A DNA stretch of 64,000 bases from Apostichopus japonicus (Eukaryota > Echinodermata > Holothuroidea > Aspidochirotida > Stichopodidae), in assembly GCF_037975245.1 (NCBI RefSeq), contig NC_092569.1:22348168-22412167 (forward strand), given 5' to 3'. Positions within the stretch are counted from its first letter, which is position 1. Every line of letters starts with the position of its first letter. The notes beneath the pieces are model-generated. The model was not told the origin of the DNA. It saw only the letters and a list, made by a program, of their open reading frames with translations, and did no database searches. Below, in pieces: positions 4,296 to 64,000 of this stretch. The translations under genes were made by a program, and so were the position numbers.

Positions 4296-11450
<7,155 letters not shown>

Positions 11451-13350: not shown

Positions 13351-13922
13351 TATATTATTGGGCACGGGCTCCCCTTAGGACAATATAATATCCCTTGAAA
13401 TCATTGCTCACTAATTGTGTTTCTTATTTTCTTAATATATCACATTTAATTACATTTGAAAAGGATATTAGTGCGTAATCACGACAGTCATACCTCGCTT
13501 ACGTTCTGAACTGACAGTGTTCCTTTACTCCTTGCCTACACTTGCACCTCCATTTCCCATAGTTAAATTTCTTGCTTGTCTTTTTGCAGCAAGGCATTTT
13601 AAACTGACTTAAGTTTTGGCTGCCAAATATGCATCGGTTTCTTATCGAAATTTATACAACCATATTCGACACATTCTGACTGAAATTCGTCTTAATTTAC
13701 ATTAATCATTTGAAATCACCGTTGCGTCTGTTTTAGATTACCCATACCCATCATCGAAACAATGACAGACTATGTTCTGTGATCAATCTGGTTCCACTAC
13801 GAGATCCGATGTCACATAATATGGAAACAAATATTTTATTATATATATATTATATTATCTTTTAAATCAATATATGTTGTAATGTATCAGACAACGTAAA
13901 GAAAGCTAAGCCTCTGTAGTGA

Positions 13923-16210: not shown

Positions 16211-16571
16211 TAAAATTGACGTCAAAAGTGGCCACCACGACTACCATATTTACTATCATTTCGTTTCATATAGAATCAAATCAATAAGATGATTGGTTTA
16301 TAATAGTTCAATGAAGATACCGTAGTATTTAATACAAGAAAGACTCATTAGTCATAATATTTGTTATGATTTTAGCTTCAATTTTTTTCACGTCCATATC
16401 CGTGTCCAAGGTTTCAGACTTCCTTGTTCTGTTATCTACGGACGCTGTTAAGTAGCAGTTCTCATGGAAGTCTTACATGTGATGTAAGTATTTATCACGT
16501 AATGAAATTAACCAATCAATTTAGTGAATAATTTGTAGTACCAAAGATGGACACAATGATTTACTGTACGT

Positions 16572-28160: not shown

Positions 28161-31100
28161 TTAAAGTGTAAAATACTACAACTTCAGTATCTTTCCATTT
28201 TGAACGATTACTAGGCAACAACTCAAACCGCCGTCCTTTTTTCTTCTGCAAATTTGTAAAGAAAACTGATGTATTACATGTTCGAAACAAGATTTCGCCA
28301 ATTTGAATGCGTATGTCGAGATAGTACTAAAGGTAAAAAAATCCCACATTTAACCGTTTTCACCGACATAATTTATTATTGAGAGTTTTATTTCAAATTA
28401 TTGACGTTTTGAATGGGAATACCGAGAATAAACATTTTCAAGACTAGAGTTTCTCACCAACCGATATTGAAAATTGTGCAAAAAAGCATATACCGTTTTA
28501 ACGCAGCTTTGCTCCATGTTTTACTCTCCAAGGAAAGGAGCTTTCTAAGCTTCCGTCCTTAAGGCATTACAGTCTCAATATGTGTTTGCCAAATATTTAC
28601 TTCGACCTTTCCAGCTTACTGCCTTAAGAGCTCAGTGAAAATAATTTGCAAGCCCTGCCCAATTGTTGTTGTTGTTGATTTTTTCTCTTTAGCTATTATG
28701 TTCAGCCTTAAAATATGTTAAATCCGTGGAAGCTCCTTCAATTCTAAATTGAAGATCACCCGACTATCTAGGACATTCGCCTATGTTTATGTTAATCCTT
28801 TGTCTACAAATATTTGTAAACCCAAGTAAAACAAAGTCTTATAACTTCATCTGAAGCACAGAGCACTCTTGGGTAATATGCAACGCTATTAGTCGGTGAT
28901 AAATTTATAATGCATTGTAGAAATATTATCTAGCCCATGCAAGTATTGTTTTCCCATTTGGGATTTGTGTTTCATATGGGACAATGAGCTAACGGTCTGT
29001 GTAAGACTTAGTAGTCCGGACGCATTTACTTCATGGGTCTGAGTTACTTAAAGAAATATTTTTCAAAATGTAAAGAAGATATAGAAATTCAAGTTGAGGA
29101 CACTGTTGTTTAGCATCTTAAACATCAAATTTGATTTTGTGCATTCGGTCACCCGTTAATACTATGTTTGGTGGGCACGACGAGAAATTAAAAAAGGAAG
29201 CCCATCTGGATATTCTAGATGAATTAGCGATGATACAAGAAGAAGTACATGGTGTCTATTTGGTTTACTGTCTTCACGTTTAACATCAATATTAGTCGTT
29301 TCACGGGTCTCCTGCCCGCGGCCGGCTTCAGTCGATGAGTGAGTCCCGCATGAATGAGAACATAAACATTATGTTTACAGAAACTATTTTCTTACGAATG
29401 CGTGGCGGCGGGAAGTAAGTTCATTCAAAGAGCCAAACCCTTTACACGGAAAGCAGCAACTTCCTTGGGTAGTTGGCCTGAACTAGGAAAGCAGAACAAT
29501 GCTAGCAAAAGAAATATCATAAACATATAAGCAGAATAATGGGGGGCGACATATTTTGCTTTCTGAATAAGACGTTAACTCATTACAGACTTAGACACAG
29601 TTTGGCGAACTGCGCCGTATTATTGGATAACATTTGCTTATTACACTGAAATACCATCCACTGTTTCGATGAGTAATACGTTAGTAGTATCGGTGAGCAC
29701 GTCACATGCCTCCCAATGCGTGGTACTTTATTAATATGTAATTCGACGTTCAGTTTATTTCAGTCGAAACGTTCGTGAGCGAATAACAAATGATTGACCA
29801 ACTTTAACCATGGGTAATCTACACCTGTTGGTCTCGTATATCTCTTCGCGAGAGTTTGTATTGTAATCCAAACGGGCTTAATGCAAAGAAATAAAACTGA
29901 AGCCAATGAAATAATAATTAATCCTTAATATCAAAAATACAACTCTAATATTTGTTTTGTAAATGAACATTTTTGACACGTTATCAGCAGAGAGTGGGGA
30001 CGTGGAACTTCCCTCCCCGCTCGAATGAGCAACACATACCAACACAATCAATTATACAGGTGAGACTATGTGCAAATACTTTGACTATTATAACGACAAT
30101 TATGAACGAACATGCAAATGAGGGTGCAGTTAACACAACATCATAGGGTCTTAATATTTTCAGGAATATTTCGTGTTTGGGTTATTGACACAGGATATAT
30201 AAAGACAGCAAGTCAAATAGATAAACAAATAGGACCTTGATTTCATTCAAGGATTTGCTTCAGGCAAACACACGATTTTATATATTTCTTATCAGTGATG
30301 ATTAACTATCAAAATAAATTTGTCTCAAATCCAAATATTTCTTCGCTCACGAACGTTAATAACACATACATAATATTGGAATACTTCAATTGAAAGTTCA
30401 TTATTTGAAATTTAACTCTAACGTGGCAATGTGTTAAGCAACGTGGTACTAACATTAAATTCAACTGCAAACAGTGCTTTTAGAAAAAAAATGAGATCAC
30501 ATGTCGTTTAAAAAACTGTAAAAAAGATCTGTAGGTAATTAGTGCAGATTCTCCAAGATCATCTTCAATATCCAATTTGAAGATATCTATTTTTTCCATT
30601 AAAACGATTTAAATGTCTGTAATACTGATTTAGGTAGGTTTGATCATGTAGTCCGTGCCTCTGTTAGACATAAATTGTCAAGATCATTGCAAAGTTAAGG
30701 CATTTTAGTCACCCTTTCTAAAGGGTATTCCTTTTGTTAGCGTGAAAGAATCAAAGAATGAGATGAAGAATACAATATCATCTTCCAGGAAATAAATATA
30801 TAAGCAAAATGTTTATCAGTAAGTCGTTTGAATCCATTAAAGTCAGGTGGTTTCCATTTGATTAGTGAGTCGCTTTGAAGACTTGACTAGGCTAATATTT
30901 TGTAGGACATGGAATTACACTGGTTTGTTTCGCGACCACTGTAGAAGTATTGAGTACTACATAAAATTATTTTAAAAAATTATAAGAATAATTGTTATTA
31001 AACTTCGAACCTACTTCATTTTGGAATAGGTACTACGTTTGTCAAATATAACTCGCACATCCGTTCACTTTGACAAATAGCTCAAACATCGGCAAATTCT

Positions 31101-32056
31101 TACATCTCCACATATCTTTATCCGAAAATCCAGTTCTATAATTTTTCTATCTTTAGATACAATTTGCATCCCGCTTATTTCTTTGGAACATGAAAAGGTA
31201 ATAGTTCTTTGAATAATGATACGAACATATTTTTCCCTATTCTCTGTAAGTCTTCAGACCAGTGTATGTATATACAATTAATAAAGTAACAATTCCCACA
31301 CGAAACACTACAGACTTTGATGTAGATGTTTTCAAGTGGATTTTACTGTTAATCGTTTGCGTCCCTTTCTCATTCATTTATGTCTGATAATGGCTCGTTA
31401 TACTTCTCCATCAGTATAGCCGTACTTGTAATACATAGCTACGGTGATTTACTGCCTTCAGTTTACTGTCAGCGCATATCTTAGTTCTTTCATCGTTTCG
31501 TCAGGGCGTTAAAGAGAAGTGCATAGTTTGACGGAAAATAAGAACCTCGATAAGTCCTAGATTGGCTTCCTATATATAGTCTTCTTTCAACCCTTTTACT
31601 ACAATTTAGTTTTCTTCTGAATACAGAAATATTTAATTAAATTTAATTTAAGTAATATTCATTGAAACCACGGCAATTTTTTCTTAACGTTATGGACTTG
31701 ACAGAAAATCCCAGTTGTATTTCCCGAAAGAGATCACGAGGGGAAGAATCATATCAAGATGGCCGACTCATAGTTTGTACTGCACGATTTCGGTAGTCTC
31801 GATTTCCTTGTCCACAGGGGTTTGACTTCCTTGTTCTTCTGTCTACCGATGCGCGTAAGAGACAACATTTAGTAGAAACTACCATTTTACTAAAATGAAT
31901 TTTTTAAATGAGGTTAACTGTGTTCTGTATTTTCTACCGTACCTACTAAAGTACTCAATGTAAGGTAGGTTCTGTCGTCGAAAGAGGTGATAGACAGTAT
32001 CAACTTGAATTCAGAGAAGGGCGAGCCACCAGAAAAGATTTCACTCTTTCGTCAAA

Positions 32057-32134
32057 ATGATCAGCAAGTTTGATTCAATCTTCCAATTTTTATTTTTCCT
32101 TTGGACAACTAGCTGCCTCGTTTTTCGTGAATCG
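32057..32134 (+). CDS. Gene B exon 1: signal peptide
   Basis: 26 codons with a strongly hydrophobic core (IFQFLFFLWTTSCLVF), ending TCG before GTAAGT, phase 0. Only FLWT and the exon-intron border resemble the gene A signal exon. The gene C copy is almost identical. Confidence 0.8.
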
Positions 32135-35100
32135 GTAAGTTCTAGTACTTTTATCATTTTTAATTAAATCCAGCATAAAAATCAAAGTCAATTTTGTTTT
32201 AGTGCCTTCCAATGTAGCACAGAGTAAATATAGAAAAAAACTTAAACGCATTTCATTATTAACCTTCCTCGGTCATATGTCGTAGTATATATTTCAATGT
32301 ACTTGCTCGGTAACAGAATATGAAACTAAAGTTTTGATTGTTCAAAAGATGATATAAGATATTGGAAATGGAGACATCATAATTCCTCAAATTCAGTACA
32401 ATTTTCATAGTTGGTATATTGTAGTGATCTGAAACACGATTGTCTGTAACGCTTCAATGTCCGTAACAAATAGTTCAACAACAAAAATAAACGCAAAGGA
32501 TATTAAAGTGTTTGGAGTAAACGTTCAAGTAGATGAAGATATACTTCTTTCAGATTAATGAAATACTTAAAATTAATGTTAATCTCCCACAAAAGAGTCC
32601 AAATTTAAAGCAAAGTAAAAAAAAAATTCAAATCTTGAATAGCAATTCTCCTTTTGACTTTATTTTAAAGTAAAGTTTTGATTGTTCAAAAGAGACATTC
32701 ATAATTCCTCAAATTCAGTACAATGTTCATCTTTTGGAATCCTGTATTTGTCTGTATCAAAGTTAAAATTATGGTCTGTGTCGCTTCAAAAGTGCGTGAC
32801 AAATAATTCAACAAAATAATAATAAACGCAAAGGATCTTTCAGTAATTGGAGTCAACGTTGGAGTAGATTCAGGTATACCTTTTTCAGATTAAATTAAGT
32901 ACTTTCAGGGTTATTTTAAACTCCCCACAAAAGAGTCTCGAAATTGAAACAGAAGGCAAGCAATCAAATCTTGAACTGCAAGTCTCCTTTTGACTATATT
33001 TTAACGAATCAAGAAAAAAAAGAGAGATTCGAAAATCATTAAATATTATATTTTTGGCAAAGATATTGAAATTAGATTTAAATTAAATTAAATCTAATGC
33101 TTTCAAGTTTTTTATGTTTTCCATTTATCTCAGAAATGAAAAGTGTTAACTTTTAAACTTTCTGCAATGTGTTGAAGAAGTCACTAGTTGTATGTAAAGT
33201 AAAGGTGTAAGATGTAAGATCGAATAAGAGGTATGGGATTTTTCTACTTTTTTAAATGCCTTTAGCCTCTGAGGAAGAGCCTGCTAGGATCGAAACGTCA
33301 GGCAAACTTACTTTTACACATTCGATTACACAGGCTCTCTAGTGGATAAGCAGTTTGCTAACAGTTGTATTATATTTTGAAGATAGTTTATTGTAATATT
33401 AATAGTCACTTAGTAACGCTCTCGAATCATTTAGGACACAAACATGTAGTAAAACATTCAAAGTTCCATAAATATCATAGGTATAAAAGATGTATAAAAT
33501 ATTAAGCTCTTGTTAAGTTAGTAATTCATAATCCTGTATTCCTCACCTATAACTTTACAACTGCAAATTAACCTGTTAATGGTATATCTTCCTCACTGGC
33601 ACAAATTCAGAACTTTCATGTGTTAATAAAAGACGTGCTAAACTTGTTAATATGATTTTAATATTAATGATAGCAGACACAATACAGACTGTCATAAATG
33701 CAAGTTTTACCGATAGTATAAATCAAATACGGTTCTTTCAATTATATTAATAGAAACGTAATAGCTAAAATAAACATGCCCATTCTTTGAATGGATATCT
33801 TTAGTTTCTTAGCTTTATCATAATTAAGGACAAAAGAATGTTTTTACTTTATATTACTTAAAGTTTTCATCATGTTACTTCAATTCACATTGAAACCTTT
33901 GATTTATTATAATGCACCAAATTTTGTATTCCGATGCTAAAATATTAGATCTTCTTTAGTTAAAAGCAATCTATGAATTTCAATGAAGCAATGAACACAT
34001 AACAAAGTTAAATTTTAATTGGGTAACCAATTCAGCGTAAAATCTACATGATTTACCGAGGATAAAGAAAAATAAGTTAATGCCAGACGTAAAAATCTCT
34101 GGACTTTTGTCCAATTTGCCAAATTTAAATGAGAGAAGGCAAATAAACATGAAATATATATCGTTTCAATATGCAAAGACCTTTTTGCAAAGCCTAACAT
34201 GAAATTTCAAGCAACGTATTAAATATTTCTTAAGATTTGCAGAATCTGTCGAGCATTTGTAGTTAACCCATAGATGCATTTTTATATCCTTCAAAGATTG
34301 CGAAAAAAAAGCAAATCAGTCATAATGCACTTCGATTTGGCGAGATAATGAGTCAAATAATTCCACCTTCTAAACTTTGAAAGCCATTGGCATATCGTTC
34401 TTCTCAATTGCTTCCTCATTTAATGTGTTGCAGTCTTCCAAAAGCTATACAACTCTTTTAAGATAATACACGGATAAGAGAAATCGAAAAGTAAATAAAA
34501 CATGTCTGAATTGAAAATAAAATAATAGACCAGCATACCTATTTTTACATCTTCGTCATATGATATATTAAATCTTATTTTGTGTGTAGCTTCAAGAATG
34601 TTCAAGAAAGATTTTCCTATAATAACTCAAACGAAACAAATTGCAAAAACCGAAATCAATGTTTTGTAAAAAGGACCCTTTCTTTGTCACTTAAAATTAA
34701 GGTTAGGTGACTAAAAATTGTTTTTTTATTAAAACATTTTTCGGCACCAATAGTTTGTCAAACATAGAACATTCTCGTCAATATGAGTTTTTTTGGAGGA
34801 AATAATCAATTCCTAGTTAGTCGTGGTAATGCTCGGTATCGCCTCATAACGTTATAACGTCATTATATTTTCAACTATTAAGTGCCTGTGAGACTCGCTT
34901 CACCAGTGCAAAGCTATGTCAATCGTAGGTAAACTGCATATTACGACCTTCGTTTCAGGACAAAAAATTAAGAAACGGACGAAATGTGTACTGTCAAATT
35001 AATTACTAAGAGTAATACCTTCCACTATATACTTGTAAGATAAAGTATTCCGCAACGTAATATGCAACTATGTTGATGTAGGCCTATATACTTATTAATA

Positions 35101-38100
35101 TTTGTTCTTACTTTCATTTATCTACAACAGTATGTGGTCTGTGGTTATTTTCGCGTATTGTACCACAATTCCCTACACTGTTAAGATTTTTTTTATTTAC
35201 AAACAAAAATCAGGAGATCCTAAGTAAATGTAAAACATTGGTTTGTACTCGAAAATAAAGAAAACACATATTTTGCTTAATTAAAATGAAATTTGAAAAT
35301 CATTACTTTATGAGTATTGATTATAGCTCATACAAAGTAATATGATTCGCGATCAATATATATTCTTGGTTTAACAGATGGTAGCCGATTCCATCAAATG
35401 TCTTATAAAAGTGTTAAGTCCTAATTCCTTGCGGTTTCGCAAAATATAACTTCCGATAGCTTTTCTCGACTACTTACTTAAAGTAAAAGTTTCCGGGATA
35501 CAGGATACATTTGGAAAGACCTTATATCCAACTAAATAGGCTGGGACTTTTTTAAATTTCGAAAATTCAACATTGTTGATTTGATCTTCTTTTTGTTTAT
35601 GTCAGACTCTTAATAATTAAGATCACAGCGACGAGATGTCTGTAATTTAACACTGAAAGTGTATTGCTGAACATTGATACTTAATATATTGACGATACGT
35701 TTGTACATATAGCTACCTCTGTTTATTCTTGTTAAGATTCGCTCGGCGATATTATTAGTTATATGTATACGTTTCTTAAGCGAGTAAGTTATAGTAACTT
35801 TAAAAAGGCACCATGTTACTTAAAATTCATCACATCTTACAGATACACCAATCCCATACTCGTAGATAAATAACTTTTATGTCATTAGCTATTATTTAAA
35901 TAACAACACAAATAAAGTGCTACTTAGAAAAAATATCGAACAACCGTAAGATAAAAAAATCAAGGAAAGTCTAATGCCATTTCTTGTTGATTTTGCTATT
36001 TTCATAAAAATATCTTACCTAAATTTTCCTCTAAAATTTAATACGCCATTTTCGATTGTAAAAAAGTATTTCCTTTTCAAAATAGACCGAAATTCCGGAG
36101 CAATGTTCTGTTTTTTTGTTGAAAAATACAATGATAACAATTCATTTAAAGGGAATATCACGTAAAGAATTTTCTTTAAAAAATGTCGTAATTTATTTAT
36201 TCTGTAATCATTAGCTAAAAAAATCTATACTTGAATTTGCTCTTTCTGGTTCCGTTGTCACTTTTTCAATAAAAGTGTTGATATGTTTGTACAACAAAAC
36301 CTGAAACTACGTGTGCATTGTTCAATCTTCTTCACTTTATTGATTTCGTCATGTTTAACAAAGCTGGTACGACAATGTTAAATCCTCTCCCTCCCAACAC
36401 CTCCACCCCTTCCCAAAAAATATTTTAGTTAAGTTTTCGAAAGTAAATTAAAAACCTTATTAGAAATGATCAGGATTTAACTATAGTTACTATAATGATC
36501 TTGTTGCATCGTAGATATAAAACTTTTACCGTGTTTTAACGAAATAAATGTATTTTCGCTTTAAATGTCTCGTCAATTTGTTTCTCTTTAATATAAAATT
36601 TCGAATGAAAAAAGATTGAGATTACTCTTTGTTTGGAAAGAACGACAATGCCTCGATCAATAATTGTATTGTCAAGCAGAAAGGTTTTAAGATTGGGAAA
36701 TGCAAGTTAGACTTGTAGAAGGAAGAGTTATCGTTGTAAAAACGTAAACACAACTGAGTAGAATCATTTTGATTCTAGTCTACACATGTAATGTGCTTTT
36801 TGATTCATGATCATTCGAGTGTTGTAGGATGAGCCCTCGTCGGATTTATGAGTATTTATTATTTGTAGTGGAGTTAGGCTGTTTAACTGAACTCTGTTTA
36901 GTGTTAACCTATAGCATGTTTCTTATAACGGTATATTACCAATATCTGTATTAACACCTCTAAATAGATTCAAACACCCCATGCCTTGGCGATACATATT
37001 TTCACTCTCCCCCTCCCGTTTGTTTGAGAGAGGAATGTGTGAGATTGTTAGCGAAAATATTTTGAAATGGACAACTTGAGGATAGATTAAAGCGAGGCGA
37101 GTGATATGTGTCCATCATCCGTCCCCCTCTCGTTCCTCTTATTTCAATTGGAACACATTTTCTTTCTCATTTTAAATGAACCAATTTCAATAATTTCAAT
37201 TTTCAAGAAAAAGATTGTAGCACCCATATAGTAACCGACATCTTCGCCACCCCCAAATCTATCCAACCGGCAATCACTACTTGTTTTGTTAATTGATCTA
37301 TTCAAGTACACCCAATAAGTATTCCCAGTAATACTTCTCAACGTAAATGGGACACATATTTCACATTGACTCGGAAATATAATGAGAACTTGTTTTCAAA
37401 AAAGTTTGAAATCTTTTTCAGAGCTTGATATCCAGAGGTCACTGATTCGAATCATGTTTTATCCATAAACTTCTTTGCTCTATCCCATTGTTTAAAACAA
37501 CAAAGTCACATTCCTGTTATTTATTTACATATATGAATTTTTCTTCGGTTAGAGTGCCCAACAGACAAGTGATGGATCTTCTAATGAAAAGATATTAGGT
37601 GAGTGATGCTTACCCCTCTTGATTCCAAACATGTAATTTAAATAAAATTTAAACTCTTGTTACAATATACTAATCATGTAAACAATGCCTGGAATATATA
37701 CACAGGCAATAGGGCGTGATTTGCGGGGGTTTGTCTGAAGTATTAGTGGACGAGAATGATAGAGGAGTTAAGGTGTTTTTTGGCATTCAAATAGAAATCT
37801 ATCCTCACAGTTAAACAAAACAGTCGATATAATTCATGTCAGAATTGAAAGTATAGTGTAAAGTACGCAGTGATCGGTTGTGCTATTAAAGTAACATTTT
37901 CTACAAAACTACCCGTGTGAGGCCTTTCGAATAGTTGAAATTAAGAACGTGTTGTATGTTATATATATAAACCAACATAAAAAATGCAAACTTAAAAAAA
38001 AATGTAGACAAGTTTTTTTTTCATTCAATTGCTTCATAGGTTCATCATCATTTTTCTTCTATCAACCATCGACTTATCCGAGAGATTGCAGAGAAGTTCA

Positions 38101-41100
38101 GGGGCAATGTTCATCCCATAACTCTTCCGGTGTCTTCGTGATCAAACCAGATGGTTATCTGGATCCATTTGAGGTTTACTGTGATAACACCGACAGTTCC
38201 GGTGTATGGACGGTATGTCTTTGGTTTTTGCTCTTATATCAACAATTTTCATACTGAAACAATAATGTTCACATCAGCTGGAAGAGTAGTAACGATGTTA
38301 GTTACTTCGGTGACCATGTTATATATTTGTAAGTTACAAGATGGTGGTAAGAAAAAATACGTTCTCTTTTCATTGAGTAAAGATCAAGACGGATATGCTG
38401 GATGCCAAAATTTAAAGCATCGAATGAAGATCAGTGACTCACAAACCATTTCGGTAACGACTCTGTCCATAGGTAATACAAAGGCGTACCGACGGGTCCA
38501 TCGATTTCCGGCGCGGCTGGGACAGCTACAAGTCTGGCTTCGGGTTTCTCTCTCATGAATTCTGGCTCGGCAACGAGAAGTTGTCTTTCTTGACCAACCA
38601 GAAGAAATACCAACTGGTGATTGAGATAACCACATCAAACGGTACTTTAATCCGGGTTTCTTACGATCATTTCCGTATAAGTGACGCATTCAGTCACTTC
38701 AAGCTGGGCAACCTCGGCAATTATTCTGGAGAGAATACTGGTGAGTTATCACGAATAAATTAGATATAAACGCAATATTATACCCACATTTCTTAAAAGG
38801 CTTTAATATATGTGAAGATGTATCGTTTCGTGACGTCGTCAAACATTTCATAAGATAACAGATATGCAGGGTCATCGGGGGAATATCACTGATAAACCTC
38901 TCTGGACCCATTTGGTACATCCCTCTATATTCAACCATCGTTTCGATAAAATAATATATCTGAACTTCACTTATCAAACACTTAGTTTACTTCATTAGGT
39001 TACATACATTCCTAGTAACATTAATGTAATAATAATTCCGATTAATTTTATCTTACAGATGCTATAACATTCTGTCCCGGCAATATGGACATTGATGACT
39101 GCAGTACCGCGTGTCAACGAACTTGTGAAGCTCCAGGAATCTGTCAGGATGAGGTCTGTACTGATGGTGAAGTCTGTTTTTGTCCCGATGGATTCTTCAT
39201 GAAGGAATCTGACTGTGTAACTCGTGAACAATGTGGATGTTACGTATCAGAAGGACGGACGATCGTAGCAGTAAGTACAGGAGCCATCCATTAAAGAAAT
39301 ACAAAACGACTCTTTACTTTAATGTACAAATTGTGCGTTACTACTTTGTTATATATAACTTTAATCTCAATGTAAATAATTGCTACAAACTGGAGTAAGA
39401 GATGACTGCATATTGTGATATCAACAACCATTTTTCTGACAGGAAGGTGACTTTTTCGTGAATGCTGGATGTACCAGAAAGGGTGTTTGTACTAACGGTG
39501 AGGTCATCTGGGATGAAGGTTACGCATGCAGCCCTAACGCAAACTGTGAAGAAAGAAATAACATAAGACAATGTTATTGTGATGATGGCTACGGAGAAGA
39601 CGGTGAAACTTGTACTTCAGTGACTCCAAAAGATTGTCAGGAAATTTATGATGATGATAGTACCAGAAACAACGGTATATACAGAATCAAGCCGACCGGA
39701 TGGACAGGGTCAGCATTTGAGGTATACTGTAACATGACCGACGGAGGAGGATGGACCGTAAGTGTTATAGCCTACGATAGGCACGGAGATTACATTATGA
39801 ACTATATAGTTCATTAGTAGATATTGCACTGGAATGCATTTTTCTTTAATGTAAGACTTACTTTCATCGTAACTATTCGTTTCACAGATCTATGTCCTAT
39901 GTCGGATTGTTGGATATTTTCTTTGTCATTGTTTTTAAAGATATTCGTGTTTATATACAAGAACATTTGACGTTGTACCACAGTCTATTGACATTGGTAT
40001 TCTTTACCTCCATGATTGAGAAAGTTTTGTTTATTCTACTTATTAACTCATTATATTGCCAGGTTGAAATTTTTTACGTATTAAATTACCTTAAAAGGTA
40101 GTTCATTTTGAGAAAAAGATATTTCAGATTTCACACCCGGGAGGCCACTAATATTATTCATTTTTGTGTTATTAACTACATTTTTTTCATTTTGAAATCT
40201 TTAAGGTGTTCCAACGACGTGTCGATGGTAGTCAGGACTTCTACCTTCGATGGAACAGCTACAAGCAAGGATTTGGAAATTTAAGTATTAATTTTTGGCT
40301 CGGAAATGATAAACTTTATTACTTGACCAACCAAAGGAGATATGAAATCAGAATCGACTTAGTGAACAGATACGGAGCTCCATACTACGCCAAGTTTGAC
40401 TTTTTTAGGACAAACGACGAAAGCGACAACTATCGGTTATCCGGTGTTGGGACCTACAGTGGAACATCAGGTTTGTAGTCCACACATCTCCTTTAATACT
40501 AAATGTGGTATTTCTGCATAACTAGATAATGAGACACAACCAGGTTATCGTTTCATCGATACTACCTCTCTCTCTAGAAATAGATTATTACTTCAGTTAA
40601 GTATAGTATATATTGACATCATCTTAAGGATAAAGAAATAAATAACAAGGTAAGAAGGCCAAGCAGATGAAAGATAGATTATATTTGTAATTAATAGCCT
40701 GAGAATGGAAATTGTATCAAAATAGGAAACTACCTACATTTGTCTGTTATAGTTCTACAGTCCTGTCATAATTGTTTAATACCTTCAAAATTGCACTGGC
40801 TGGAAACTAATTATAAGCATCGTTCAACCATTAGTTAGAATCAACGACTAACTGATAAATACAGGCAGGAAGATAATGCTGTCTGTACCACCTATTAGGA
40901 TAAGGCAAAAGTCAGTCCAAAGAGGAAACAATACACACATTTGAACTTAAAATTCATAGTATTCAAGTTATCAATATACAGACGAGCGTTAGTGTTGTCT
41001 TCGTTCGTCTTTAAAAGTAGTAAATAACTGACTGACATACTCAGAACATTTAGAAATACTCCACATACCTTTACATTTGTTAATTTCTCTGAGACGAATT

Positions 41101-52190: not shown

Positions 52191-55100
52191 GATTCTCATT
52201 GTTGCTTTTGTTTCTTTAGCTATTCCGGTTTTCTCAATTTCAGTCTTAAAATATTTTAAATCCGTGGAAGCGCCTTTCATTCTAAATTGAAGATTACCCC
52301 GACTACCTAGGACAGGCCATGTTTATGTTAATCTATTGTCTATAAATATGAATAAACTCAACTAAAACAAAGTCTTATAACTTCATATGAAGAAAAGGGT
52401 AGTGTTGGGTAATATGCAACGTTATTTGTCGGTCATACATTTGTAATGCATTATAGAAATATTATCTTTGGACTTAAAAGTCTTGTTTTCCCATTGAGAT
52501 TTGTGTTTCATCTGGGACAATGACGTAACGGTCTGTGTTAGACTTGGTAGTCCCGACGCTCTACTTGATGGGCGTGAGATACTTAAAGAAACATTTCTCA
52601 AAGTATAAAATAGCATAGAAATACAAGTTGACTGAGGACACTTGGTTTACTGTTTGCAAGTTTAACTTCAATATTAGTCGTTTCGTGGGTCTCCTGCCTG
52701 CGGCCGGCTTAGGTTGGTGGTCGAGTCTCGCATGAATGAGAACATGAACGTTATGTTCACAGAAACTACTTTCTTGAGAATGCGTGGCGGCGGGAAGTAA
52801 GCTCATCTAAAGAGCCAACTCCTTCACACGGAAAGCAGCAACTTCCATGGGTCGTTGCCCTGAACAAGAAAAGCAGAAAGATGTTAGCAAAAGAAATATC
52901 ATAAACATATAAGCAGAATAATAGGGGCGAAACTTTCGTGAGCGAATAACAAACGATTGACCAACTTTAACCATGGCTTTTCTACACTTATTGTTGTCTA
53001 CGCAAGAATTTCTATTGAATGCAAAACGGGCTTAATACGAAGAAATAAAACTGAAGCTAAGGAAATATTAATCAATCTTTAATATTAAATATACAACTAA
53101 AATATTTATTTTTTTCAAATGAAAAATGTTGACAGGTTATCAGCAGAGAGTGTGGACCTGGAAGTTCCATCCCCGCTCGAATAAACACCAGATACAACAA
53201 AAACAATTATATTGGTACGACTGTTTGCAAATTCTTTTACTTTGATAACGACGATTATGAACGAACATGCCACTGAGGTAGCAGGTAACAACAACACATA
53301 TATGAATAAATCCGCGAAACAGGCTTTACTATTTTAGGTGAAAATTGCTTTGTTTGGGTTAGTAACACAGAGTATATACAGACAGCAAGACAAATAGATA
53401 AACACATGCTCTCGATTACATTCAAGGACTTGCTTCCGGTGAACACACGATCTTACATATTTCTTCTTAGCGAAGGTTGATGATTAACTATTAATATATT
53501 TTTTTCTCAAATCCCAATATTTCTTCACTCATGAACATTCATATCCCAAACATGATATTGGAATACTTAAATAAAAAGTTCATTACTTATTTAACTCTAA
53601 TGTAGAAATATGTTAAGCTACTTGGTGATAGCATCAAACTGGACAGCAAACAGTGATTTTAGAAAACTTGAGGTAGAGTTTCTAATGGTCCGTGCCTCTG
53701 TTAAACATAAATTACCATGATCATTGCAAAGTTTACACATTTTACTAACGCTACCTAAAAGGTTATTCCTTTTGTTAGCGTGAAAGAATCAAAGAATGAG
53801 ATTGAGAGAGCTAATGCAATATCATCTTCTATGAAATAAATAGATAAGCAAAGAGTTTATAGGTGTGTTGTTTGAGTCGAAGTAAGCCATGTGGTTTCCA
53901 TTTGATTAGTGAGTCGCTTTTGAGGAATTTACTAGGCTACTATTTTGTGGGACATTGAATTGTATTAGTTTGTTTCGTGACCACTGTAGGAGTATTGAGC
54001 ACCATATAAGATAAAGAACCCGGTAGCAACTATAATAATTATTGTTTATAAACTTAGAGCCTACTTCATTTTCGGAATAGGTACTACATTTGTCATATAT
54101 ACCCACTCACAGCACCAATTCAACAGGCTCGCACATCCGTTCACTTTGACAACATAAACAGCTGCTCAGACATCGTCACATCTTCACATATCTTTATCCG
54201 AAAATCCAGCTCTATAATTTTTTACCTTTAACTACAGCATGCTCTTCCGATTATTTCTTTTAAACCTGAAAAAGTAATGATTCTTTGAATAGCAATACGA
54301 ATTTCATTTTCCATGATTCAATTTTACTCACCTTTTAATCACAAAACATAAGCTCTAGCAAAGAAAAAAAATTGAAATTCAACAAATATTTCGAACTATC
54401 CTTGTCAGATATCTTTAAGTCTTCAAACCAGTGTAATAATGTACAGTTGATAAAGTAACGATTCCCACACGAAACATTACAGACTTTGATGTAGATGTTT
54501 TCAAGTGGATTTTACTGTTAATCGATTGCGTCACTTTCTCATTCATTTATATATGATAATGATAGTTTGACTTCTCCATCAGAAAAGCCCTACTTGTAAT
54601 ATATAGCTACGGTGATGTACTGCCTTCAGTTTACTGTCAGCGCATATCTTAGTTCTTTCGTCGTTTCGTCAGGGCGTTAAAGAGAAGTGCATGGTTTGAC
54701 GGAAAATAAGAACCTCGATAAGTCCTAGATTAGCTTCCTATATATAGTCTTCTTTCAACCCTTTTACTACAATTTAGTTTTCTTCTGAATACAGAAATAT
54801 TTAATTAAATTTAATTTAAGTAATATTCATTGAAACCACGGCTATTTTTCTTAACGTTATGGACTTGACCGAAAATCCCAGTTGTATTTCCCGAAAGAGA
54901 TCACGAGGGGAAGAATCATATCAAGATGGCCGACTCATAGTTTGTACTGCACGATTTCAGTAGTCTCGATTTCCTTGTCCACAGGGGTTTGACTTCCTTG
55001 TTCTTTTGTCTACCGATGCGCGTAAGAGACAACATTTAGTAGAAACTACCATTTTACTAAAATGAATGTTTTAAATGAGGTTAACTATGTTCTGTATTTT

Positions 55101-55224
55101 CTACCGTACCTACTAAAGTACTCAATGTAAGGTAGGTTCTGTCGTCGAAAGAGGTGATAGACATTATCAACTTGAATTCAGAGAAGGGCGAGCCACCAGA
55201 AAAGATTCCACTCTTTCGTCAAAA

Positions 55225-55301
55225 TGATCAGCAAGTTTGATTCAATCTTCCAATTTTTATTTTTCCTTTGGACAACTAGCTGCCTCGTTTTTCGTGAATC
55301 G
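55225..55301 (+). CDS. Gene C exon 1: signal peptide, possible 1-nt deletion
   Basis: Same sequence as gene B exon 1 apart from a T-run that is one base shorter by position count. With the deletion the hydrophobic peptide would be lost after codon 13. A homopolymer sequencing error is equally possible. Confidence 0.55.
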
Positions 55302-58300
55302 GTAAGTTCTAGTACTTTTATCATTTTTAATTTAATCCAGCATAAAAGTCAAAGTCAATTCATTTTTGGTGCCTTCTAATGTAGCACACAGAAAATACAG
55401 AAAAGAATTTTAAACGCATTTCATTATAAACCTTCTTCAGTCATCTGTCGTAGTATATATATTTTAATGTACTTGCGCGATAACAGAATTTGAAACTAAA
55501 GTTTTGATTGTTCAAAAGATGATATCCGATATTGGAAATGGAGATATGATAACTCCTCAAATTCAGTACAATGTTAATATTTGGTATATTGTAGTGATCT
55601 GTATTGAAATAAACATCATTGTCTGTAACGCTTCAAAAGTCCGTAACAAATAATTCAAAAAATAAACGCAAAGGATATTGAAGTGTGTAGAGTAAACGTT
55701 CGAGTAGATTAAGATATACTTTTTTCAGAGTAATGAAATACTTAAAATTAATTTTAAGCCACCTACAAAAAGAGTCCCAAATTAAAACAAAGTAAAAACG
55801 TTCAAATCTTGAATAGCAATTCTCGTTTTGACTATATTTTAAAGTAAAGTTTTGATAGTTCAAAAGATTGTATATGATATTGGAAATGGAGACATAATAA
55901 TTCCTCAAATTCAATACAATGTTCATCATTTGGAATCCTGTATTTGTCTGTATCGAAATAAAAATGATGGTCTGTATCGCTTCAAAAGTGTGTGACAAAT
56001 AATTCAACAAAATAATAATAAACGCAAAGTATATTTCAGTAATTGGAGTTAACGTTGAAGTTGATTCAGTTACACCTTTTTCAGATTAAATTAAGTACTT
56101 AAATTATTTTAAACTCCCCACGAACCACAAAAGAGTCTCGAAATTGAAGCAAAAGACAAGCAATCAAATCTTGAACAGAAAGTCTCCTTTTGACTATATT
56201 TTAACAAATCAAGAAATAATAATCTAATGCTTTCAAGTTTGTTTATGTTTTACATTTATATCAGAAATTAAAAGCGTTAACCTTTAGAATTTCTGCAATG
56301 TGGTAAAGAAGGCTGTTGTATGTAAAGTAAAGGTGTTAGATAAAAGATCGGATAATAAGGATGGATTTTTTTTTGTGCAAATTCGATAAATAATTGTAAT
56401 ATTACTAGTAACTTAGTAACGTTCTGGAACCTTTTAAGACACAAACATCTAGTTAAACATTCAAAGTTCTTTAAATAAAAACGATATAAAAGTTGTATAA
56501 AATATTGAGCTCTTGTTGTGTTAGTAATTCATAAACCTGTATTCCTACCTTTCACTTTAAAAGTGAACATTAACCTGTTAATAGTATATCTCTCATAGGT
56601 ACAATTTCAGAACTATCCTGTGTTTAAAAAAGACGTGCTAAAATTTGCAATAGGATTTTATCATTAATGAAATCAGACATAATGCAGACTGTCATAAATG
56701 CAAGTTTTACCGATAGTGTAATTCAAATACGGTAGTTTTAAATATTAATAGAAACGTTATAGCTAAGATTTACATACCCACACTTTGAATATCTCGCTTC
56801 AGTTTCTTAACTTTATAATAATTAACGAGAAAAGAATTTTTTACTTGATATTAATTACAGTTTTCATCCGTCTAATTCAATTCACATTAAAACTTATGAT
56901 TTACTATAATGCCACCTATTTTGTATTCCGATGTGGATCTTCTTTATTTAACAGAAATCTATCAATTTCAATGAAGCAATGGACAAATAACAAAGTTAAA
57001 TTTTAATTGAGTAACCAATTTAGCGCAAAATTCTACATGATTTACTGAGGATAAAGAAAATTAAAGTTAATGCAAGACGTAAAAATGTCTGGACTTACAG
57101 TTTTGTCCAATTTGCCAAATTTAAATGAGAAAAGGCAAATATACATGAAATATATATCATTTAAATATACAAAGACCTTTTCGCAAAGTCTATAATAAAA
57201 CTTAAAGCAACTTAATAAATATTTCTTAATATTTGTAGAATCTGTAGAGCCTTTGTAGTTAACCCATAGATACATTTTTACATCCGTCAAAGATTTAGAA
57301 AAAAGGCAAATAAGTCATATTGCACATCGATTTGGCGAAAGAATGAATCAATATGATTTCACCTTCTAAACTTTGAGAACCATTGGCATATCATTCTTGT
57401 CAACTGCTTCTTCATTTAATGTATTGTAGTCTTACAAACGTTATACAACTCGTTTAAGATTATACAAGGATGAGAGAATTCAGAAAGTAAATAGAGCATG
57501 TTCTGAATTTCAAATAAAAGAATATACCAGCATACGTAAATTGTCATAATGTGATCTATTAAATCATATTTTGTGTGTAGCTTCAAGAAAGTAGACAATT
57601 CTATAATAACTCAAACAAGACAAATTGAAAAAAAATCGAAATCAATATTTTGTTAAAAGGACCCCTTCTTTGTCACTTAAAGTTAAAGGTTCGGTTATGA
57701 CTAAAACATTTTTTTTTAAAAACATTTTTGGGCACAATAATTTTTCAAACATAGAACAGTATCGTCAATATGAGTTTTTTTAGTACTGGTAAAGTTCCTG
57801 TGAGACTTGCTTCACCAGTGCGAAGCTATGTCAATCGTAAGTAAGCTGCATATTACGACCTTCGTTTCAGGTCAAAAAAAAAATTAAGAAACGGACGTAA
57901 TGTGTACTGTCAAATTAATTACTAAGAGAAATACGTTCAACTAAATACATGTAAGATAAAGTATTCTGCAACGTTATTGGCAACCATGTTGATGTTTTCT
58001 TATATTTGTAACTGTTTGTTCTTACGTTCGACTATCTACAAAAGTATGTGGATTTACAAACTAAAATCAGAAGATAGTAAGTAAATGTAAAACATTAATT
58101 TGTACTGTAAACATAAAGAAAACACATATTTTGCTTAATTCCAATGAAATTTGAAAATCGCTATTCGTCTAATACTTTTATTGCTCATAACTCCTACAAA
58201 GTAGTATGATTCGCGATCAATATAAATTCTTGGTTCAACAGATCGTAACCCATTCCAGCAAATATCTTATAAAAAATGTTAAGTCTCAATTTATTGCCGT

Positions 58301-61300
58301 TTCGAACAATATAAGTTCCGATAACTTTTCTCGACTACTTACTTAGAGTAAAAGATTCCGGGATACAGGATACATTGGAAAGACCTTACATCCAACTAAA
58401 TAGGCTGATAATTTTTTGAATATTCGAAAATTCAACATTTGTTGATTTGATCTTCTTTTTCTTTATGTCAGACTCTTAATAATTAAGATCACAGCGACTG
58501 TATGTTTGTATTTTAACACTGACAGTTTATTGCTGAACATTGATACTTAATATATTGACGATACGTTTGTACCTAAGGGCTACCTCTGTGTATTATTGTT
58601 ATGTTAGCTGAGCGATACAATTAGTTATTGGTATACATTTCTTAACCGAGTATGTCATAATAGCTTTAAAAAGGCACCTCATTTTACTTAAATTTGATCA
58701 CAACTAACAGTTACATCAATCCCATACTCGTAGATACATAACTTTTACGTCATTAATTATTATTTATAACAACACAAATAAAGTGTTACTTAGAAAGAAA
58801 AAAAAAACAACCGTAAGATAACAAAAAAGGGAGGAAGTTTTAATGCCATAACTTGTTGTCAGCCAGCAGAAGATTTTGCATTTTTCATTAACTATCTTTT
58901 TATCTATATTTTCCTCTGAAGTTTAATACACCATTTTCGATTGTAAAAAAAAAAGTATTTCCTTCTCAAAATAAACTGATATTCCGGAGCAATGTCTGTG
59001 TCTGTTTTTGTTTTAATGAAAAATACAATAGTAACAATTCATTTAAAGGGAATGCCACTTATAAGTTTTTCTAAAAAATATATGTCGTAATTTATTTATT
59101 CTGTATCATTAGCTAACAAATCTATACTTGAATTTGCTATTTCTGGTTCGGTTGTCACTTTAAAAAAAAAGGGGGTGTTGATATGTGTTTACAACATAAC
59201 CTGAAATTACATGTGCATTGTGCAATATTTGTCACTTCATTGATTTCGTTATGTTTTACACAGCTGGTACGAACATTTTAAATCTTCCCACTCCCTAACA
59301 CCTCAAAAATAGTAATATATTAAGTTTTCAATGTCAACATAAAAACCGTATAGGAAATTATCAGGATTTAATTCAGTAAGGTTATAATTATATTGTTTCC
59401 TGGTAGATATAAAGCTCTTACAGCATGTAAACGAAATAAGTGCATTTTCGCTTTAACTGTCTCGTCAATTTCTTTCTCTTCAGTGTAAAATTTCAAATGC
59501 AAAGATTGAGATTGATCTCTGTTTAGAAAGAACGACAATGCCTATATCAATTATTTTTTTGTCAACCAGGAAGGTTTAAGATTGGGGAATGCAAGTTAGA
59601 ATTGTAGAAGGAAGAGTTATTGTTGTAAAAACGTAAACACAACAGAGTACAATCATTTTCATCTGCTAGTCTAGTCTACACATTTAATTTGCATCTTAAT
59701 TCATTATCATTCGAGCGTTGTCTAATGAGCCCTCGAAGGATTTATGAGTACTGATTATTTATAGTGGTGCTAGGCTGTTTATCTGAATTCTGTTTAGTGT
59801 TAACCTATACCATGTCTCTTTTAACGGTACATTACAAATATCTGTATTAACACTTCTAATAGATTCAAACACTCCATGCCTTGGCGATACATGTTTTCAT
59901 CCTCCCACTCCCGTTGTTTGAGAGAGGAATGTGTGAACTTGTTAGCTTAATGTTTGAAATGGACAACTCGAGTAAAGATAAAAGCGAGTCGAGTGATTTG
60001 TGTTCATCATCGGTCCCCCTCTCTGTCTTCTCATTTCAATTGGAATACATTTTTCTTTCTAATTTCAAATGAACCAATTTCAATAATTTCAATTTCAATA
60101 GCAATATTGTTGCACCCATAGAGTAACTGACATCTTCGCTATCCCCAAATCTATCCAACCGGCAATCACTACTTGTTTTTTTAGTTGATGTATTCAAGTA
60201 GGCCCAGTAAGTATTTCCAGTAATACTTCTCAACGTAAATGGGACACACATTTCACATTTACTCCGTAATATAATGAAAACCTGTTTTCAAAAAAGTTTG
60301 AAATCTTTTTTCAGAGCTTGATATCCAGAGGTCACTGATTCGAATCATGTTCTATCCAAAAGCTCTTTGCTCTATTCCATTGTTTAAAACAACAAAGTCA
60401 CTTTCCTGTTATTCATTTACATATATATATATATCTTTTTTCTTCGGTTAGAGTGCCCAACAGACAAGTGATGGATCTACTAATGGAAAGATATTAGGTG
60501 AGTGATGCTTACCCCTCTTGATTCCAAATATGTAATTTAAATATAGTAAACCCTTGTTACATTATATTTATCATGTAAACAACACATGCATTAGGGCATG
60601 ATTTTTTTTTTTTGGGGTGGGTGTGGTTCGTCTGAAGTATTAGTGGACGAGAATGGAAGAGGAGGTAAGGTGTTTTGGAGCATTCAAATAGAAATCTATC
60701 TTAACAGTTAAACAAAACAGTCGATATAACTCATGTTAGATTTGTATGTATAGTGTAAAGTACGCAGTGTTAGGTTGTGCTGTTAGAGTAACTTTTTTCT
60801 GCAAAACTACAAGTGTGAGACCTTTCGGATAGTTGAAATTAAGAACGTGTTGTATGCAATATATGTAAACCAATATCAAACATGCAAAGTAAAAAAAATA
60901 ATGTAGACAATTTTTTATTTATTTCTTTGCTTTTTAGGTTCATCATCATTTTTCTTCTATCAACAATCGACTTATCCGAGAGATTGCAGAGAAGTTCAGG
61001 GGCAATGTTCATCCAATAACTCTTCCGGTGTCTTCATGATCAAACCAGATGGTTATCTGGATCCATTTGAGGTTTACTGTGATAACACCGACAGTTCCGG
61101 TGGATGGACGGTATGTCTTTGGTTTCTTGATCTTCTATCAACAATTGTCAGACTGAAACAATCATGTTCACAGCAGCTAGAAGAGTATTAACGATGTTAC
61201 TAACATAGGCGTTGGAGGCGGGGGGGGGGGGGGGGCTGGGGTGGCTGCAGCCCCACAACCAATTTTTTTTGTGAAACTTCGGGCAATATGCTGAGAATTT

Positions 61301-64000
61301 TTCGGGCACCAACTGAAAGAAGAAAAAATTGCAGTGTGTTTTTCAATATTTTTGGTGAAAATTCGGTCTATATGCTGAGAATTTTTCGGGCACCTACTGA
61401 AAAAAGAATAATTTGCAATGTGTTTTTCATTTTTTTTTTGGTGAAAATTCGGGCAATATGCTGAGAATTTTTCGGGCACCAACTGAAAGAAGAAAAATTT
61501 GCAGTGTGTTTTTCATTTTTTTTTTTGGTGAAAATTCGGGCAATATGCTGAGAATTTTTCGGGCATCTACTGAAAAAGAATAATTTGCAATGTGTTTTTC
61601 ATTTTTGGGGGGGGGGTGAAAATTCGGTCTATATGCTGAGAATTTTTCGGGCACCTACTGAAAAAGAATAATTTGCAATGTGTTTTTCATTTTTTGGGGG
61701 GCGAAAATTCGGGCAATATGCTGAGAATTTTTCGGGCACCTACTGAAAGAAGAATAATTTGCAATGTGTTTTCATTTTTTGGGGGGTGAAAATTCGGGAA
61801 ATATGCTGAGAATTTTTCGGGCATCTACTGAAAAAAGAATAATTTGCAATGCGTTTTTCAATGGTTAAACTGATATTATTATTATCGTTATTATTGTAAC
61901 GACTTCCCAAATAATTCTAACCAATATGGAAGGGTAATAACACGGAATATATAACCAAAATTTTTCGCGCTCTCCGCGCGCGTTCAACATCTTAATGTGC
62001 ATGTCAAATAGGCTTTCATCGGTTATCGGCATGTGATGTAAAACCGATGAATGCCTATTTGATAGCACATTAACATGTTGAACGCGCGCGGAGCGAACAA
62101 AAGTTTTGGTTATATTTTTCGGGCAAGTCGTTACAGCCCCCCCCCCCCCCCCCCCCCAATCAAATTAGGCTCCTACGCCTATGGTTACTAATATCGGTAA
62201 CAATGTTATATATGTTTAAGTTACATTGTGCTATTCATTTATTTTTTAATTACCTAAAGACAGAGACGGCTGTGCTGGATGCCAAATATTACGCATTGAG
62301 TGAAAGATCAGTAACTCTCAAATCATTTCGGTAACGACTCTGTCCATAGGTAATACAAAGGCGCACCGACGGGTCCATCGATTTCAGGCGCGACTGGGAC
62401 AGCTACAAGTCTGGCTTCGGGTTTCTCTCTCATGAATTCTGGCTTGGCAACGAGAAGTTGTCTTTCTTGACCAACCAGAAGAAATACCAATTGGTGATTG
62501 AGATAACCACATCAAGCGGTTACTTAATTCGGGTTTCTTACGATCATTTCCGTATAAGTGACGCCTTTAGTCACTTCAAGCTGGTCAACCTCGGAAACTA
62601 TTCTGGAGAGAATACTGGTGAGTTATCACGGAAAAAATTAGATATAAACGCAATATTATACCCACATTTCTTAAAAGGCTTTAATATATGTGAAGATTAC
62701 TTGTTTCGTGACGTCGTCAAACATTTCATTAGATGACAGATATGCAGGGTCATCAGGGGAGATTCACTGACAAACCTCTCTGGCCCATTTGGTACATCCA
62801 TCTATGGTCAACCATCGCTTTGATAAAAGAATACATCTGAACTTTATTTATCAAACACTTCATTCACTTCATTAGTTTCCTAGTAACATTAATGTAATAA
62901 TAATTCAAATTAATTTTGTCTTACAGATGCCATAACATTCACTTCATTGACACCAGCAAAAGATTGTCAGGAAATTTATGATGATGGTTCTAGAAACAAC
63001 GGTATATACAGCATCAAACCAACCGGATGGACGGGGTCAGCATTTGAGGTCTACTGTAACATGACTGACGGAGGAGGATGGACGGTAAGTGTTATAGCCT
63101 ACGATAAGCACGGAGATTACATTATGTAAAACCGATGAATGCCTATTTGATAGCACATTAACATGTTGAACGCGCGCGGAGCGAACAAAAATTTTGGTTA
63201 TATTTTTCGGGCAAGTCGTTACAGCCCCCCCCCCCCAATCAAATTAGGCTCCTACGCCTATGGTTACTAATATCGGTAACAATGTTATATATGTTTAAGT
63301 TACATTGTGCTATTCATTTATTTTTTAATTACCTAAAGACAGAGACGGCTGTGCTGGATGCCAAATATTACGCATTGAATGAAAGATCAGTAACTCTCAA
63401 ATCATTTCGGTAACGACTCTCTCCATAGGTAATACAAAGGCGTATCGACGGGTCCATCGATTTCAGGCGCGACTGGGACAGCTACAAGTCTGGCTTCGGG
63501 TTTTTCTATCATGAATTTTGGCTTGGCAACGAGAAGTTGTCTTTCTTGACCAACCAGAAGAAATACCAATTGGTGATTGAGATAACCACATCAAGCGGTT
63601 ACTTAATTCGGGTTTCTTACGATCATTTCCGTATAAGTGACGCCTTTAGTCACTTCAAGCTGGTCAACCTCGGAAACTATTCTGGAGAGAATACTGGTGA
63701 GTTATCACGGAAAAAATTAGATATAAACGCAATATTATACCTACATTTCTTAAAAGGCTTTAATATATGTGAAGATTACTTGTTTCGTGACGTCGTCAAA
63801 CATTTCATTAGATGACAGATATGCAGGGTCATCAGGGGAGATTCACTGACAAGCCTCTCTGGCCCATTTGGTACATCCATCTATGGTCAACCATCGCTTT
63901 GATAAAAGAATACATCTGAACTTTATTTATCAAACACTTCATTCACTTCATTAGTTTCCTAGTAACATTAATGTAATAATAATTCAAATTAATTTTATCT
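55225..64000 (+). CDS. Gene C: rearranged fibrinogen-related gene, runs off the window
   Basis: Exons seen: 55225-55301, 60452-60497, 60938-61110, 62350-62617, 62927-63084, 63429-63696; the window ends in the following intron. Exons 1-4 match gene B (signal peptide, linker, partial FBG). Exon 5 is a fusion: the first five codons of the TIL exon joined in frame to the FBG start of exon 6, so TIL and EGF-like modules are gone. Exon 6 is a duplicate of exon 4, giving a hybrid FBG whose N-terminal part comes from the second FBG and whose central part comes from the first. Phases agree from exon 2 onward. Exon 1 counts 77 nt against 78 in gene B because one T appears missing from a T-run; if real, this shifts the frame and stops in exon 2. 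No C-terminal FBG exon is visible. Confidence 0.75.
55302..60451 (+). other. Intron 1 of gene C
   Basis: 5.15 kb, collinear with intron 1 of gene B and AT-rich. No independent exon is recognised; a short TA run lies just before exon 2. Confidence 0.6.
60452..60497 (+). CDS. Gene C exon 2: linker
   Basis: 46 nt, phase 0 to 1 (SAQQTSDGSTNGKIL), nearly identical to gene B exon 2. Confidence 0.75.
60938..61110 (+). CDS. Gene C exon 3: FBG N-terminal subdomain
   Basis: Reads [30 protein letters not shown] and an intact GGWT, unlike the GVWT of gene B. Phase 1 to 0. Confidence 0.9.
61275..61865. repeat. Minisatellite inside the hAT-like element
   Basis: About seven units of 82-88 bp containing ATATGCTGAGAATTTTTCGGGC, with variable T/G-runs. 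The open frames seen on the minus strand across it are repeat translations, not a gene. Confidence 0.9.
61955..62110. repeat. Long inverted repeat (hairpin) at right end of the hAT-like element
   Basis: Arms of about 65 bp (AACCAAAATTTTTCGCGCTC; CGCGCGTTCAACAT) pair across a short loop near 62020-62036. The right arm plus terminus recurs at 63124-63270, starting in the loop. Confidence 0.85.
62350..62617 (+). CDS. Gene C exon 4: FBG central subdomain
   Basis: Reads [28 protein letters not shown] and YSGENTG. 268 nt, phase 0 to 1. Confidence 0.9.
62927..63084 (+). CDS. Gene C exon 5: fused TIL-start/FBG-start exon
   Basis: Opens DAITF as the TIL exon of gene B does (39059), then continues TSLTPAKDCQEIYDDG to DGGGWT as the FBG half of gene B exon 6 (39614-39757). 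About 541 bp relative to gene B are missing and the frame is kept. Phase 1 to 0. Confidence 0.88.
63429..63696 (+). CDS. Gene C exon 6: duplicated FBG central subdomain
   Basis: Duplicate of exon 4 with five substitutions, all in the first 100 bp: three change the protein (T to I after QRR, L to F and S to Y before HEFW). The remaining 170 bp are identical. Phase 0 to 1, so it splices in frame to exon 5. Confidence 0.88.

Follow-up and report, generated by a model that had tools for sequence, protein, structure and literature searches.

A tandem duplication of an exon pair within one clustered fibrinogen-related gene in the Apostichopus japonicus assembly

When analyzing a 64,000-nucleotide stretch of the Apostichopus japonicus genome (C9:22348168-22412167, called the window here; positions are those of the window unless C9 is given), we found in its last ~2 kb a block of ~1.08 kb standing twice in tandem inside one fibrinogen-related gene, gene 3. 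At the level of the assembly, the duplication is real: the near-identical copies are adjacent, lie within one gene, and keep the reading frame. Judged from length and identity, a repeat of this kind, which takes in exons, introns, and a piece of a mobile element, goes far past what chance would be expected to give. We consider it very probable that one tandem duplication within the gene, of a block holding exons B1 and A2 with their introns, gave rise to this doublet in a member of a large tandem family; the mechanism, the order of events, the splicing, and the function we infer from the sequence. There are three related genes in the window, all on the + strand. Genes 1 and 2 have the order A1-B1-TIL-EGF/A2-B2-C, in which A, B, and C are the three exons of an FBG domain, and gene 3 has the order A1-B1-A2-B1'-A2'-B2-C. 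The parts of the repeat are as follows.

62036 to 63123, + strand: copy 1 of the duplication unit, with the right part of the mobile element, exon B1, an intron, exon A2, and the start of the next intron
63124 to 64202 (C9:22412369), + strand: copy 2 of the unit, with its last 202 bp beyond the window end at 64000
63115 to 63134, + strand: joint between the copies, GATTACATT-ATG-TAAAACCG

The genome searched comprises 671,581,487 bases in 35 contigs, from which the DNA beyond the window end was fetched for the flank. Within the window, alignment from 62036 (copy 1) against 63124 (copy 2) gave 866 matches and 11 substitutions; the copies also differ by 9 nt in a run of C, and the repeat offset is 1088 on one side of this run and 1079 on the other. 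With the flanking genome, the full unit shows 13 substitutions and the C-run difference between the copies. An earlier note on this DNA had reported a direct repeat near the window end with an offset of 1087 and a start at 62037; the alignment of both copies bears out the repeat and moves its start by 1 bp. The note had also thought a longer array possible, which was ruled out: past copy 2 the original intron resumes as ATGAACTATA, matching gene 2, and no other B1 exon follows until 17 kb downstream, so that the array in the assembly is two units long.

The exons of gene 3, all predicted, are the following.

59183 to 59266, + strand: putative signal-peptide exon MCLQHNLKLHVHCAIFVTSLISLCFTQL, tentative, with a non-standard GTACGA donor
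60452 to 60497, + strand: short exon upstream of A1, phase 0 in and 1 out, conserved in gene 2
60938 to 61110, + strand: exon A1, A subdomain of the first partial FBG
62350 to 62617, + strand: exon B1, B subdomain of the first partial FBG
62927 to 63084, + strand: exon A2, the start of the TIL exon fused to the FBG part of the EGF-like/A2 exon
63429 to 63696, + strand: exon B1', the second copy of B1, in which I, F, and Y replace T, L, and S of B1
64006 to 64163 (beyond the window), + strand: exon A2'
64635 to 64899 (beyond the window), + strand: exon B2
66331 to 66557 (beyond the window), + strand: exon C

Eight exons of gene 3 read 520 codons and a stop, with AG ahead of all eight and GT behind the first seven. 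The copy of the first FBG's central exon does stand behind the second FBG's N-terminal exon, as had been noted, and the phases permit splicing, the A exons being phase 1 in and 0 out and the B exons 0 in and 1 out. The B+A unit thus has phases 0-0, so its doubling is possible without a frame shift. A spliced gene 3 message is predicted to hold a new A2-B1' combination. Leaving out B1 and A2, with A1 joined to B1', also keeps the frame, and the product of such splicing would have two modules, like the unduplicated relatives. In the 520-residue prediction, the PF00147 profile matched in three stretches (472.3 bits, cut-off 22), and the only other Pfam match, COLFI (PF01410; 43.8 bits, cut-off 26.2), overlaps the second module and is taken for a shared fold region. 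Pfam analysis of the gene 2 exons placed TIL (PF01826) above its cut-off and EGF_3 and TILa below theirs; two residues at the TIL/EGF junction of the gene 2 protein are probably not coded, and the sub-cut-off TILa match starts near there, with the other matches elsewhere. The gene 3 prediction has a complete FBG at its C terminus and a signal peptide that is putative only. The exon for the latter is also open in gene 2, and it is open with the GTACGA donor start at at least four further places in the cluster. The gene family is probably one of secreted fibrinogen-related proteins.

Gene 3 can encode A1-B1, A2-B1', and A2'-B2-C, that is, two partial FBG modules before one complete FBG, as predicted from its exons. 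A1-B1 aligns to positions 151-285 of the 411-residue fibrinogen gamma chain (PDB), and A2-B1' aligns to positions 140-276. Module 1 covers PF00147 positions 2-137 of 221, and the last module, which covers positions 2-220, is the only one with A, B, and P together. In module 2, the B exon is a copy of the B exon of module 1, and no C exon follows. The hybrid FBG domain proposed in the earlier note is thus right as to the in-frame A2-B1' combination and too much as to the domain, which is partial and stops where the C exon, with the P subdomain, would begin. In the interval between B1 and A2 of gene 3, no FBG-like frame for a C exon was spotted by eye. We take the exon ends of the partial modules to be the B/P boundary, going by the alignment and by the residue ranges of fibrinogen gamma rather than by a structure.

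The ratio of nonsynonymous to synonymous substitution (dN/dS), pooled across all pairs, which are therefore not independent, was 0.135 for B1 exons (14 sequences), 0.309 for A1 exons (12 sequences), and 0.191 for B2 exons (10 sequences). The B1 set includes both gene 3 copies and two possible pseudogene members, 22563 and the truncated 22590 (genes of the cluster are named here by the position of their B1 exon in kilobases). These values point to purifying selection on the partial FBG, which does not look like decay. Outside the cluster, the A1-B1-TIL-EGF-A2-B2 order was found at all three C9 places sampled (~6.29, 11.09, and 17.91 Mb), where B1 identity was 81, 83, and 63%, respectively. The single place sampled on C20 has the arrangement of a whole FBG, with B followed by a C exon. 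On C9, A1-B1 without C is the usual state of the gene family.

We investigated the distribution of the doublet in the cluster using exon B1 as the query, with 150 of 1196 candidates scored, so that the distant matches are a lower bound. There were 32 B1 matches in 31 genes at C9:22.371-23.242 Mb. For 14 of the 31 genes only ~1.9 kb was fetched, for some others 3.27 kb, so the 3' exons of these genes are covered in part. The doublet was found in gene 3 only (1 of 31). TIL and EGF matches are present in 21 of the 31 genes, among them gene 22445, where the EGF match is partial and A2, B2, and C are without a match in the next 11 kb. Nine genes carry the fused A2 exon without TIL and EGF, with B1 at 22410, 22521, 22563, 22575, 22721, 22971, 23154, 23187, and 23229 kb; 22521, 22563, and 22721 are alternatively named p22520, p22562, and p22720 after their A1 exons. 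Compared with gene 2, 541 bp are deleted at the fusion, with one breakpoint in the TIL exon and the other in the EGF/A2 exon. The suggestion that exon shuffling is making new FBG combinations holds for one intragenic in-frame duplication, which is just one event in 31 genes; the exon-fusing deletion, which removes the TIL and EGF-like parts in 9 of the 31, is a second rearrangement and occurs elsewhere in the cluster too.

Some cluster members are irregular in other ways. At C9:22590432 (gene 22590), A1 and B1 are followed by no TIL, EGF, A2, B2, or C match in the next 7 kb, which makes it a truncated member. Gene 22985 has two B1 matches 89 bp apart (C9:22985196 and C9:22985285; 68 and 89% identity), and A1 went unmatched in the stretch fetched; it was considered as a second doublet and dismissed, being probably one broken B1 exon. 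Two nearby TIL matches in one gene (C9:23242704 and C9:23242826) may reflect one match split in two or a piece that is repeated. Genes 22563 and 23229 (C9:22563996 and C9:23229839), 666 kb apart with one differing site in the part aligned, have a common stop in B2 (VFQ*RVDG) and are likely copied pseudogenes. Genes 22521 and 23187 (C9:22521410 and C9:23187548) are identical across 934 bases and lie 666 kb apart, the same offset as for the former pair; either a large segment of the cluster was recently duplicated, or the duplication was made in assembly.

At the joint, the ends of the unit share only ATG, a microhomology of 3 bp; the unit starts in the loop of a palindrome and ends behind A2. 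This joint was found at one place only among the sequences compared, which are a part of the genome. The unbroken intron word is present exactly in gene 2, behind copy 2, and in six of the eight other fused-exon genes, the two without it being 22575 and 22721. Unequal or non-allelic homologous recombination was ruled out as the source of the joint because the ends share 3 bp only. There is no long homology at the breakpoints, so end joining or template switching is the likely source, and the joint was likely made by a microhomology-type event of this kind. The palindrome belongs to a mobile element in the intron between A1 and B1; genes 2 and 3 themselves lie in segmental copies.

61204 to 62183, + strand: non-autonomous hAT-like DNA element of 980 bp in the A1-B1 intron of gene 3
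61263 to 61860, + strand: array of ~7 copies of an 85-bp unit inside the element
61944 to 62121, + strand: long imperfect palindrome in the element (fold of -70.9 kcal/mol, z of -14.35)
52199 to 63126 (gene 3), + strand: segmental copy of 28672 to 39799 (gene 2), as duplicated blocks

The element is flanked by 8-bp direct repeats, GTTACTAA, at 61196-61203 and 62184-62191, and its ends, CATAGGCGTTGGAGGC and GGCTCCTACGCCTATG, are complementary at 14 of 16 positions as read. We assign it to the hAT class by target-site length and inverted ends only. The position of the apical loop was read off the sequence and the fold: it is 17 nt long (~62025-62041, with a 4-bp mini-hairpin drawn in the fold) and contains the unit start at 62036. 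The element is not present in the A1-B1 intron of gene 2 or of 22575. The palindrome tip is found in eight of the nine fused-exon genes, 22575 being the exception. A link between the palindrome and the start of the duplication is suggestive.

The age of the duplication is hard to read from the divergence of its copies. Outside the element, copy 1 and copy 2 differ at 12 of 934 sites (1.2%). The number of sites that set five other element-bearing genes apart is 11 to 17 for copy 1 and 13 to 21 for copy 2; in another alignment, with seven element-bearing genes, the ranges are 11 to 17 and 13 to 19. Among those seven genes, pairwise differences number 12 to 18, with two exceptions, 22521/23187 (0) and 22563/23229 (1). 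At 5 of the 13 sites that differ between the copies (62342, 62364, 62366, 62774, and 63037), copy 2 has the state of gene 23154, and two of these five states are found in 23154 alone among nine sequences. The same nine element-bearing sequences show four differences private to copy 2, three private to copy 1, and, at column 710, a state common to copies 1 and 2 only. Polarized by gene 2 alone, the derived state appears to be that of copy 1 at 3 of the 10 non-element sites in the window and that of copy 2 at the other 7. Five of the 11 substitutions fall within 76 bp in B1', a clustering that was not significant by simulation (P = 0.060). We dropped the copy difference as a clock, since it resembles most inter-gene distances in the subfamily and copy 2 has a mosaic look. 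A very recent date for the duplication cannot simply be assumed; gene conversion, or descent of the copies from two alleles, may have distorted the divergence.

Several points weigh against a single duplication in gene 3 that would be spliced as predicted. Copy 1 differs from gene 22563 at 11 of 934 sites, against 12 between the copies, so the copies are not clearly closest relatives, and a tree of the element-bearing sequences does not resolve their node. The cluster has near-identical blocks (22521/23187 and 22563/23229, each ~666 kb apart). A 17-nt loop would be hit by chance in the 1239-bp intron with a probability of ~1.4%, a figure for one event and for a test chosen post hoc. Exon use in gene 3 is predicted from splice sites and frame. 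As the copies are not clearly nearest relatives, gene conversion, allele exchange, or an older duplication lost elsewhere is possible. An exchange between paralogs or alleles with later gene conversion would make the unit copies descend from different source genes and copy 2 a mosaic. The states shared with 23154, two of them with 23154 alone, argue for it, as do others that both copies share with 22563/23229; the private differences of each copy and the one site found in both copies alone argue the other way, and the joint is not at homologous positions, so it was not made by ordinary homologous exchange. We regard such an exchange as possible and, on balance, somewhat unlikely. An older duplication, in the ancestor of the element-bearing subfamily, would mean that recombination between units has since removed it from the other seven genes. 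Such losses would be scarless and leave a clean single copy, and copies 1 and 2 are about as distant as most subfamily pairs. This history requires one gain and several losses, compared with one gain; the doublet is in none of the other genes of the cluster, the joint is at no other place among the sequences compared, and only the two copies have their state at column 710. We think it improbable.

The doublet would also arise if the assembler had laid two alleles or near-identical paralogs head to tail. The copy difference of 1.2% is within the range of alleles or sister genes, the near-identical cluster blocks fit such an error, and the heterozygosity of A. japonicus, given as ~0.73%, is called an underestimate (PMC5638244). 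However, stacked alleles would be expected to leave homologous ends, and the joint connects a palindrome loop to an intron with 3 bp shared. The array of ~2.2 kb is far shorter than the ~15-kb HiFi fragments given for an A. japonicus assembly of similar size (PMC10344927), the 50 kb fetched around the doublet is free of N, and the open frame is intact. The divergence of the copies speaks against a simple assembly echo. We judge an artefact highly improbable. Finally, gene 3 may be a decaying pseudogene, and its duplication would then have no effect on any protein. Two members of the subfamily, 22563 and 23229, have the stop in B2, and the coding start of gene 3 is uncertain. The 520 codons without a stop and the purifying selection on the B1 exons of the family, in a set that includes 22563 and the truncated 22590, make decay unlikely.

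If the doublet is a single duplication in gene 3, its history may have run as follows. First, in one gene, a deletion would have made a single exon out of the TIL and A2 exons; the palindrome-bearing hAT-like element would then have entered the A1-B1 intron of a fused-exon gene. This element-bearing gene would have spread over the cluster by segmental duplication. In gene 3 only, the palindrome loop would have been the site of a break or template switch and would have been joined through the 3-bp microhomology to the intron behind A2. Both the start and the end of the unit are in phase-0 introns, so the frame survives. The product would be a lectin-like protein with more A-B units ahead of one P-bearing head. 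A further idea is that the P-less A-B half-FBG is a countable in-frame module, that the element palindrome in the phase-0 intron makes its growth recurrent, and that the module number varies between animals and adds receptor diversity; we hold this to be very doubtful.

The window has further repeats. Positions 31425-32194 and 54593-55361 align over 770 columns with at least 92% identity in each 60-column window, compared with a mean of 76%; this stretch is outside the recognized exons, and there are inner repeats close by. An array of ~26 copies of an 89-bp unit lies at 13922-16217, and one of ~23 copies of a 9-bp unit, TGTGTACAA, at 5700-5902.

Duplication of an exon pair within a gene is a common and known type of event. 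The doublet shows at base resolution one change of domain number in a clustered immune-type gene family, and its ingredients are symmetric intron phases, a palindromic element as the likely weak point, and a 3-bp join. The P-less FBG is a stable part of the family, present in related genes elsewhere on C9, and what it does is a testable question. In the openly accessible literature, covering titles and the openings of abstracts, we found no description of such an intragenic duplication or of a conserved P-less FBG, which is a weak negative.

For A. japonicus, an expansion of fibrinogen-related proteins (FREPs) has been reported, with 21 FREP genes clustered in tandem within a single scaffold and with up-regulation in visceral regeneration (PMC5638244). 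They resemble the C9 cluster in being tandem-clustered FREP genes; the accessible parts of that report cover family size and expression, not partial FBGs, TIL or EGF parts, or intragenic duplication. The expansion is also cited in a preprint on Holothuria glaberrima (PMC13228809). The structures of Angptl3 and Angptl4 place the P subdomain and the ligand site in the C-terminal part of the FBG (PMC5928061). P is retained there, whereas the partial modules of gene 3 would be without it, and they would also be without the C-terminal strand that in Angptl3 packs between strands of the B subdomain (PMC5928061). The FREPs of Biomphalaria glabrata, like the family here, are proteins with a fibrinogen domain, and their variants arise by gene conversion and point mutation (PMC7588048). 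They combine one or two immunoglobulin superfamily (IgSF) domains with an FBG (PMC7588048), whereas the family here has FBG, TIL, and EGF-like parts, and IgSF had no match in the 520-residue prediction of gene 3 at E values up to 0.001. Drosophila has four FREPs with two or three FBG domains, truncated FBGs have been reported, and tandem duplication and shuffling are named as sources of the expansion (PMC2429915). Gene 3 is similar in having more than one FBG per protein and truncated FBGs. The Drosophila truncations were thought to be possibly due to sequencing error or automated annotation (PMC2429915), whereas here the truncation is seen in many genes, at one exon boundary, and with signs of purifying selection.

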